A stretch of DNA of 35,715 nt. Source: Candidatus Omnitrophota bacterium (GTDB lineage Bacteria; Omnitrophota; Gorgyraeia; JABMRG01). The DNA is taken from positions 1 to 35,715 of the forward strand of contig JABMQS010000119.1 in NCBI GenBank assembly GCA_013202525.1, written 5' to 3'. A program made the translations under genes and the position numbers. Shown here piece by piece: positions 28,571 through 30,312 of this stretch (positions are counted from its first letter, which is position 1; each line of letters starts with the position of its first letter). The notes beneath the pieces are model-generated. The model was not told the DNA's origin. It did no database searches and was given only the letters and a program-made list of their open reading frames with translations.

Positions 28571-28831
28571 ATGAAAGATATTAAGTGGAATATAGTCAAA
28601 AGCGAGAGGTTAAAAAGAGCAAGAGGGGTGTCTTTCGAGGAAATTCTATCAGGAACTCTTGTCGCAGTTAAGAAACACCCAAAAAGAAAGAATCAAGACA
28701 TAATGATTATCAGATATAAACGGTACTTGTGGATAGTGCCATACATAGAGGATAAAGATTATATATTTTTAAAGACATTGTATCCAAGCAGGAAGTATAC
28801 TAAGATCTATAAGGAGGATCTATTGAAATGA
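28571..28831 (+). CDS. BrnT-like (RelE-superfamily-type) toxin
   Basis: MKDIKWNIVKSERLKRARGVSFEEILSGTLVAVKKHPKRKNQDIMIIRYKRYLWIVPYIEDKDYIFLKTLYPSRKYTKIY. Overlaps a small antitoxin gene by 4 nt. Confidence 0.75.
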   Translation: MKDIKWNIVKSERLKRARGVSFEEILSGTLVAVKKHPKRKNQDIMIIRYKRYLWIVPYIEDKDYIFLKTLYPSRKYTKIYKEDLLK

Positions 28832-29079
28832 AGAGGATAAAGCTTACCAGGCAGGAGAAGGTTATTGAAAACAGTTTGCTGAAGCAGGAATATGCGAATG
28901 TATCGAAAAAAGAGTTTGATTCTATCGCAGAGTCAATAGTCGCTAGAAAAAAAGACGCGGTATTGAACATAAGGGTTAACAGCAGGGACCTGTCGAGCAT
29001 TAAGCAAAAAGCAAAGAAATTTGGTGTAAAGTATCAGACCTTTATATCGGAGTTGCTGCATAAAGTAGCACAGGCCTAG
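28828..29079 (+). CDS. Ribbon-helix-helix-type antitoxin (BrnA/CopG-like)
   Basis: C-terminal LNIRVNSRDLSSIKQKAKKFGVKYQTFISELLHKVAQA; overlaps the toxin ORF. Confidence 0.75.
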   Translation: MKRIKLTRQEKVIENSLLKQEYANVSKKEFDSIAESIVARKKDAVLNIRVNSRDLSSIKQKAKKFGVKYQTFISELLHKVAQA

Positions 29080-29803: not shown

Positions 29804-29894
29804 GGAGAGGTGGCTGAGCGGCTGAAAGCGGCTCCCTGCTAAGGAGTCGGCCCTATTGCTGGGCCCCTGGGTTCAAATCCCAGCCTCTCCGCCA
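29804..29894 (+). tRNA. tRNA-Ser (anticodon GCT), CCA encoded
   Basis: Acceptor GGAGAGG/CCTCTCC, anticodon loop CTGCTAA, long variable arm GGCCCTATTGCTGGGCC, 3' GCCA. Confidence 0.95.
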
Positions 29895-30273
29895 TCAGCC
29901 TTCGCTTTTATGACACGTAGACAACTTGAAAGCTACGGCTGATTTTTAAATGACATGTATTACGTATACATATTGAGAAGTAAGAAAGATAGAGACCGAT
30001 TCTATATCGGCTATACAACCGATTTGGATCGCAGGCTAAGGGAGCATAACGAGAGCAGATCCTTGTATACTAAGCGGCATGCTCCTTGGTGCGTAGAAAC
30101 GTACATTTCTTTTAGTAGCAAAGAGTTAGCTAAAGATTTTGAAAGATACCTTAAAAGTGGCTCAGGTAAGACCTTTGTTAAACGAAGGCTGATGGCGGCC
30201 TTGCGATAGGGCACCGTAGGCTGCAATTAGCTTACGTGTAATAAAGCCGAAGGCGGCCCAGCCTCTCCGCCAT
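29879..30273. mobile_element. Candidate tRNA-Ser-associated mini-element with GIY-YIG ORF
   Basis: 17-bp direct repeat CCCAGCCTCTCCGCCAT (29879-29895, 30257-30273). Inverted repeats 29898-29938 / 30214-30254 (31/41 matches by hand) enclose the ORF. Confidence 0.75.
29955..30209 (+). CDS. GIY-YIG nuclease domain protein (single domain)
   Basis: MYYVYILRSKKDRDRFYIGYTTDLDRRLREHN ... KELAKDFERYLKSGSGKTFVKRRL. Confidence 0.92.
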   Translation: MYYVYILRSKKDRDRFYIGYTTDLDRRLREHNESRSLYTKRHAPWCVETYISFSSKELAKDFERYLKSGSGKTFVKRRLMAALR

Positions 30274-30312
30274 TCTGTTTCGCCCTTCAGGTTAAGCAGT
30301 TAAAGAAGTAGA

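Follow-up and report, generated by a model that had tools for sequence, protein, structure and literature searches.

A probable minimal mobile element with a single-domain GIY-YIG gene behind bacterial tRNA genes

A tRNA-Ser(GCT) gene in an Omnitrophota genome is followed by a short segment that encodes one small protein, and the question raised by this locus is whether the segment is a mobile element that inserts behind tRNA genes and, if so, whether its GIY-YIG protein is what moves it. The segment lies in the window, i.e., the whole 35,715-nt stretch of DNA that was analyzed, which comes from a fragmented MAG with an assembly of 1.64 Mb. The parts of the locus are as follows.

29804–29894, plus strand: tRNA-Ser(GCT), the host and target gene, with CCA encoded (ARAGORN, Rfam RF00005)
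29879–29895, plus strand: first copy of the tRNA tail, 16 nt that begin with the 3′ strand of the T-stem and end in CCA, plus T
29895–29942, plus strand: left end, an imperfect hairpin made of box A, a loop and box B
29895–29905, plus strand: box A, TCAGCCTTCGC, within the left end
29932–29942, plus strand: box B, GCTACGGCTGA, within the left end
29955–30209, plus strand: gene for an 84-aa single-domain putative GIY-YIG nuclease (PF01541, E 1.2e-15)
30183–30198, minus strand: box A′, an exact inverted copy of 29889–29904 that overlaps the 3′ end of the ORF
30214–30254, plus strand: right inverted repeat, terminating in GCCGAAGGC, with 31/41 matches to 29898–29938
30257–30273, plus strand: second copy of the tRNA tail, CCCAGCCTCTCCGCCA plus T
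30273–30283, plus strand: TTCTGTTTCGC, an apparent left-box remnant of an older element (TTCTRCTTCGC with one change)

An earlier note on this DNA had described an exact copy of the tRNA tail, 41-nt inverted repeats and an 84-aa single-domain GIY-YIG protein, and had seen no integrase. These descriptions are borne out. The window has just two exact copies of CCCAGCCTCTCCGCCAT, at 29879 and 30257, and the 1.64-Mb assembly contains no further copy of the 16-nt core; a 17-mer would match by chance within 1 kb with a probability of ~1e-7. The inverted repeats share 31 of 41 positions, where the best of 300 shuffles reaches 23. The ORF matches a single GIY-YIG domain in Pfam and is the sole gene inside the element, with no integrase seen in it or around it. 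A feature absent from the earlier note is the inverted copy of CCGCCATCAGCCTTCG (29889–29904), which joins the last six bases of the tRNA to the first ten bases of the element; the copy at 30183–30198 is exact over 16/16 nt, and the longest in 1000 shuffles is 11. The first base of the element is the base that follows CCA. The left end (29895–29942) folds as DNA with −8.4 kcal/mol (z −2.4), and its A/B/A′ plan is also found in relatives. The tail duplication starts immediately 3′ of GTTCAAAT. Behind the second tail copy stands TTCTGTTTCGC, the left-end box of the element family, so the end of an older element seems to lie behind the same tail.

The neighbors of the window element are tadA and an OprB porin gene. 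Elsewhere in the window, at 28571–29079, two short overlapping genes lie beside tRNA-Arg(ACG). The second is weakly similar to CopG antitoxins, below the cutoff, and the two are likely a toxin-antitoxin pair.

In an alignment of 16 A1 members of the protein, V4-Y5, Y17, G19 and E63 are invariant and R27 is nearly so; the conserved residues are those of active GIY-YIG nucleases. The dN/dS ratio between copies is 0.04–0.14, which shows purifying selection on the coding sequence. In-frame stops are present in some copies, as is expected of decaying elements. An NCBIfam search gave no family for the 84-aa protein. The nearest solved structures by profile comparison are UPF0213 (1zg2, E 5e-11) and SLX1 (E ~1e-6).

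A search with the 84-aa protein gave matches in 79 of 99 genomes, nearly all of the same class, and 90 loci from same-class genomes were oriented on the ORF and scored for tRNA positions. An intact tRNA is present within 300 bp in 48 of the 90 loci, as against ~2–3% expected from tRNA density (a rough estimate), and all 48 are on the ORF strand. Pieces of tRNA in the same orientation are found at several more. A scan of genomes with the class 1 alignment gave 80 loci chosen by protein similarity alone, and here a same-strand tRNA lies at most 330 bp upstream in 56, with an opposite-strand tRNA nearby in two. The other 24, some of which are contig ends, show no intact tRNA upstream. The 56 tRNA-linked loci belong to Pseudomonadota (28, nearly all Alphaproteobacteria, such as Rhizobium, Mesorhizobium and Bradyrhizobium), Omnitrophota (13), Verrucomicrobiota (6), Elusimicrobiota (3), Acidobacteriota (2), Saccharimonadota (1) and unranked bacteria (3). 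Linkage to tRNA genes thus spans at least six bacterial phyla, and 15 tRNA isotypes are used when both sets of loci are taken together. The proposal that the element sits behind tRNA 3′ ends holds for its relatives in several phyla. A phage or plasmid origin was considered and rejected: 50,697 phage and 72,556 plasmid records contain no match, and the two viral contigs that match the protein do so without a tRNA.

Small GIY-YIG ORFs are also seen near group I introns, at L020:2196–2405, L028:1776–2012 and L079:957–1160. In L028 the intron seems to split a tRNA, with a tRNA-like 5′ piece lying upstream of the ORF. At the window element and L241, Rfam searches at gathering and relaxed thresholds gave tRNA as the only credible match, with tRNA alone above threshold, and a group I intron or other Rfam RNA is rejected there.

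The left junction is precise. When anchored on CCA, the left-end motif CCATTCTRCTTCGC has 67 matches in the 99 genomes versus 2 for the reversed control; when shifted one base after CCA, it has 1 match versus 3 in controls. The motif coincides with the tRNA end called by ARAGORN in 21 of 30 fetched loci. Similarly, CTTCG, CTACG or CTCCG is found within 14 nt of the tRNA end in 72 of 85 tRNAs upstream of a GIY-YIG ORF and in 4 of 43 other tRNAs. The left end of the element therefore abuts CCA and starts at the next base. It should be noted that box TTCTGCTTCGC is specific only when anchored on CCA; taken alone, with one mismatch allowed in the window genome, it was rejected as a marker since it is uninformative (50 matches versus 33 in the control).

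The variants of box A found directly 3′ of the tRNA include TTCTGCTTCGC, TCCTGCTTCGC, GCCTTCGC and TACTTCGC. Box B resembles GCTTCGCAGGA and pairs with A around a TTC/TTC mismatch, with a loop between the two. Box B is followed by a linker or the ORF, then by A′ (the reverse complement of A) and the complement of the last bases of the tRNA, and then by a second hairpin, which in Alphaproteobacteria has the form GCCCTCCGAAGC..GCGTAGGAGGGC. The whole plan of A, B, A′ and hairpin is built on GCGAAGC/GCTTCGC, and GCGAAGC is an extraordinarily stable DNA mini-hairpin. Families with short boxes were misaligned by MAFFT in an alignment of 25 sequences, and a direct test for reverse-complement boxes was used to assess pairing instead. 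In 55 of 85 loci, the first ten bases recur downstream as their reverse complement, versus 2.8% of shuffled boxes; the inverted-repeat design, to be looked for in relatives according to the earlier note, is common among them.

The bases after A′ are mostly TG where the tRNA terminates in CA. Several loci with other tRNA 3′ ends show the corresponding complement, e.g., ACTG behind a tRNA-Gln ending in CAGT and ACG behind an end in CCGT, and in L222 a 14-nt inverted tRNA tail follows A′. The ORF lies between B and A′ in the Omnitrophota copies in which it is nearest the tRNA, including that of the window. Other copies have the ORF after the second hairpin, where, judged by eye, the GGAGGG arm forms the Shine-Dalgarno sequence just before the start codon; in the Alphaproteobacteria copies this sequence, again by eye, is held in the hairpin. 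The full structure is also found without an ORF in five loci (L158, L164, L173, L180 and L183).

Filled and empty sites, which the earlier note had proposed to look for, are both found. The neighborhood from tadA to tRNA-Ser(GCT) is kept across the class of the window genome. The element is present there in the window and L134, and box motifs without an ORF lie behind the tRNA in L127 and L149. Other GIY-YIG insertions at this locus are behind the tRNA in L136 and L137 and between tadA and the tRNA in L147. The site is empty in ~20 genomes, including two from the family of the window genome (L124, L126). The tRNA-Ser(GCT) locus of Mesorhizobium was fetched from 30 genomes, in 29 of which the tRNA is identical over 91 nt. 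An element of family A starts at the base after CCA in five (L294, L300, L308, L310, L312), family B is present in eight (L298, L301, L303, L304, L307, L311, L318, L319), decayed ends are seen in six (L296, L297, L302, L305, L309, L322), and nine show no recognizable element (L295, L306, L313, L314, L316, L317, L320, L321, L323). The start of the downstream gene is the same behind filled (L294, L300) and empty (L314) sites. In addition, one genome, G001, has two related copies behind tRNA-Ser(CGA) and tRNA-Asp. Their strong similarity begins at the end of the tRNA and ceases ~25 nt downstream of the stop codon of the ORF, and the flanks are unrelated. Mobility is thus displayed as gain or loss at a fixed site and as related copies behind different tRNAs, and it is very likely that this is a mobile element of tRNA ends.

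The right side is less regular. Most copies have the precise left end but a right side without a repeat, a duplication or a clean end. The duplicated tRNA tail, which the earlier note had made part of the element, stands for the window, L009, L024 and L193, with a T-arm copy in L102, and is lacking in most of the ~85 loci. As it is rare (4–5 of ~85), it is rejected as a general hallmark. The comparison of the two G001 copies shows no duplication; inverted repeats are common among the loci (55/85). L102 lies on contig 86 of the window genome, with the GIY-YIG ORF ~240 bp behind tRNA-Lys and the second T-arm copy just upstream of the ORF. In L024 and L193 the tail and the element start are repeated behind the ORF, which suggests that the element is in tandem or circular form; an assembly artefact is possible in both, L024 being at the end of a contig and L193 having Ns.

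Sister clades of the element seem to have taken the same course at the 5′ ends of tRNA genes and at operon junctions. A protein tree with 86 members, built from few columns by a quick method, has a clade with the tRNA upstream (17/21 rows, SH-aLRT 96), one with the tRNA downstream (20/26) and one with short TIRs (16/17). Insertion type groups by protein clade, with fewer label changes than in every shuffle, as is expected if the protein sets the target. In class 2, the ORF ends 0–54 bp (a few up to ~140) before an intact tRNA. Most of these ORFs follow a copy of the 5′ part of that tRNA whose D-arm region is split by a GC-rich palindrome such as CCTGCCTGCCGGCAGGCAGG (class 2 loci include L022, L076, L081, L082, L100, L105, L106, L108, L114, L116 and L121). 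Subclades of the class 2 protein match tRNA species (Asn, Arg-TCT, Pro, Ser). Class 3 has TIRs of 12–19 nt (ACCCCGCACCTTC, ACCCAGCCCCTCC, ACCCCGTTAGAGAT) and is found at operon junctions (L065, L093, L097, L101, L067, L078, L107, L113), L101 being on contig 82 of the window genome. Several class 3 elements lie at ATGA overlaps, where, by eye, the TGA stop of the upstream gene is kept and the downstream gene acquires GTG as its start. In L021, palindromes without an ORF, ACCCCGCACCTTTT..AAGGTGCGGGGT, lie upstream of the ORF and carry the TIR of the adjacent GIY-YIG element; these are MITE-like relatives of class 3.

From these sequence comparisons, we consider it probable that the ~360-bp segment is a minimal selfish element specialized in tRNA 3′ ends, with the GIY-YIG protein as its mobility nuclease. 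The single-domain protein would recognize tRNA genes at the T-arm and acceptor end, by sequence or by hairpin shape, and break them, and host repair of the broken gene would copy the element in. The tRNA would supply the shared end for repair, from which the exact left junction would follow; the right end may be joined by micro-homology, or by the tRNA tail where that is duplicated. The tRNA would stay intact after insertion behind CCA, and the cleavage site may thereby be lost. The GCGAAGC/GCTTCGC boxes probably serve for recognition or as end structures. Cleavage by GIY-YIG enzymes often results in 2-nt 3′ overhangs, and it may be speculated that the recurrent TG after A′, the complement of the terminal CA, would fit such overhangs; any particular cut position is doubtful. 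Cutting of the tRNA end and autonomy of the element are plausible by analogy to SegB (PMC13096335).

It should be considered whether these are non-autonomous elements moved by an unlinked enzyme, either a tyrosine integrase or a RAYT/IS200-type HUH transposase acting on hairpins, with the GIY-YIG protein as a passenger or accessory. The tail duplications at the window, L009, L024 and L193 look like attL/attR pairs, and the hairpin ends and ORF-less copies resemble REP and MITE elements. However, tail duplications are rare, the insertion class tracks the GIY-YIG clade, the same protein family and the same architecture are together in six phyla, and the low dN/dS is that of a gene kept by selection; movement by an unlinked enzyme is therefore unlikely. 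Less probable still is a resident, non-mobile unit, in which a structured 3′ trailer and a nuclease serve tRNA maturation or sensing and are inherited vertically with frequent loss. Such a unit would account for the strict co-orientation with the tRNA, the conserved foldable sequence directly after CCA and the Shine-Dalgarno sequence seen by eye in the Alphaproteobacteria hairpin, but not for the uneven occurrence at a single locus of one genus, where two element families are found, the use of any of 15 isotypes, the copies behind different tRNAs in one genome, or the ORF-less and decayed copies. Least probable are remnants of ordinary tRNA-integrating elements (prophages or ICEs) that lost their middle and kept a short cargo gene between att-like repeats: duplication of the tRNA 3′ tail, present in the window, is classical for integrases, but size and gene content are alike everywhere, the window element has no integrase, and the phage and plasmid records hold no close relative, the two viral-contig matches being without tRNA.

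The selfish element with its own GIY-YIG mobility nuclease can be tentatively extended to an undescribed class of transposable elements in many phyla, in which a single GIY-YIG protein might act on DNA hairpins (boxes of the GCGAAGC type and the cloverleafs of tRNA genes), with clades for tRNA 3′ ends, tRNA 5′ ends and stop/start overlaps. If the proposed mechanism is true, the element, with one 80-aa domain in ~350 bp and found in many phyla, would rank with the smallest known autonomous mobile elements; its tiny gene in the shadow of tRNA genes would explain why it has been overlooked. It would make small orphan GIY-YIG genes explicable in a testable way, would provide a compact nuclease whose unusual target is the tRNA 3′ end, and would extend tRNA homing of the SegB type from phages to bacterial chromosomes. 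Since filled and empty Mesorhizobium sites are at hand, the element is directly testable.

Several known systems share parts of this design. REP/RAYT and MITE repeats have hairpin ends, small size and ORF-less copies, but the nuclease of the element is GIY-YIG and not HUH, and the target is the CCA end of a tRNA. Elements with tyrosine integrases also target tRNA 3′ ends, and a duplicated tail is found here in a minority of loci; unlike them, the element has no integrase, is ~0.36 kb long and does not have duplication as the rule. UPF0213 (e.g., BH0048) and Slx1 have a small GIY-YIG domain with the closest profiles among solved structures, and by sequence profile the element protein is nearer to these than to SegB. 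Slx1 has an additional domain and a partner. It is a structure-specific nuclease according to the molecule name of the solved structure. In the literature searched, UPF0213 and Slx1 are not described as mobile or tRNA-linked, and no description of chromosomal tRNA-linked GIY-YIG elements was found (preprints and most subscription papers lie outside that literature); the consulted part of the nuclease survey PMC1564403 has no such tRNA-linked context.

The nearest parallel in way of life is SegB of phages T4 and T6, a free-standing homing endonuclease (Brok-Volchanskaya 2008, cited in PMC13096335). According to PMC13096335, SegB cuts inside tRNA genes at the motif RAWTSGAAC, is linked to tRNAs without isotype preference, and drives tandem amplification via micro-homology. 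The tandem-like L024 and L193 resemble such amplification. By our own reading, GTTCSAWTY, the complement of the motif, fits the T-arm consensus of tRNAs. Both systems have a GIY-YIG gene without an intron beside same-strand tRNA genes, and the T4 layout is close to classes 1 and 2, segB being 5 nt from tRNA-Arg and 41 nt from tRNA-Ile on the same strand (L324, phage T4 68500–74500). In contrast, SegB is phage-borne, with 221 aa and a C-terminal region beyond the GIY-YIG domain, whereas the element protein is a single domain of 84 aa; and neither A-B-A′ boxes nor an exact CCA junction is described for SegB in the consulted passages of PMC13096335. BLASTP between the two proteins gives no significant match (E 0.079), and they share a PHROG only at E 4e-4, so that by sequence the element protein is not recognizably a close homolog of SegB. 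The element described here is probably a new variant of the free-standing homing elements.
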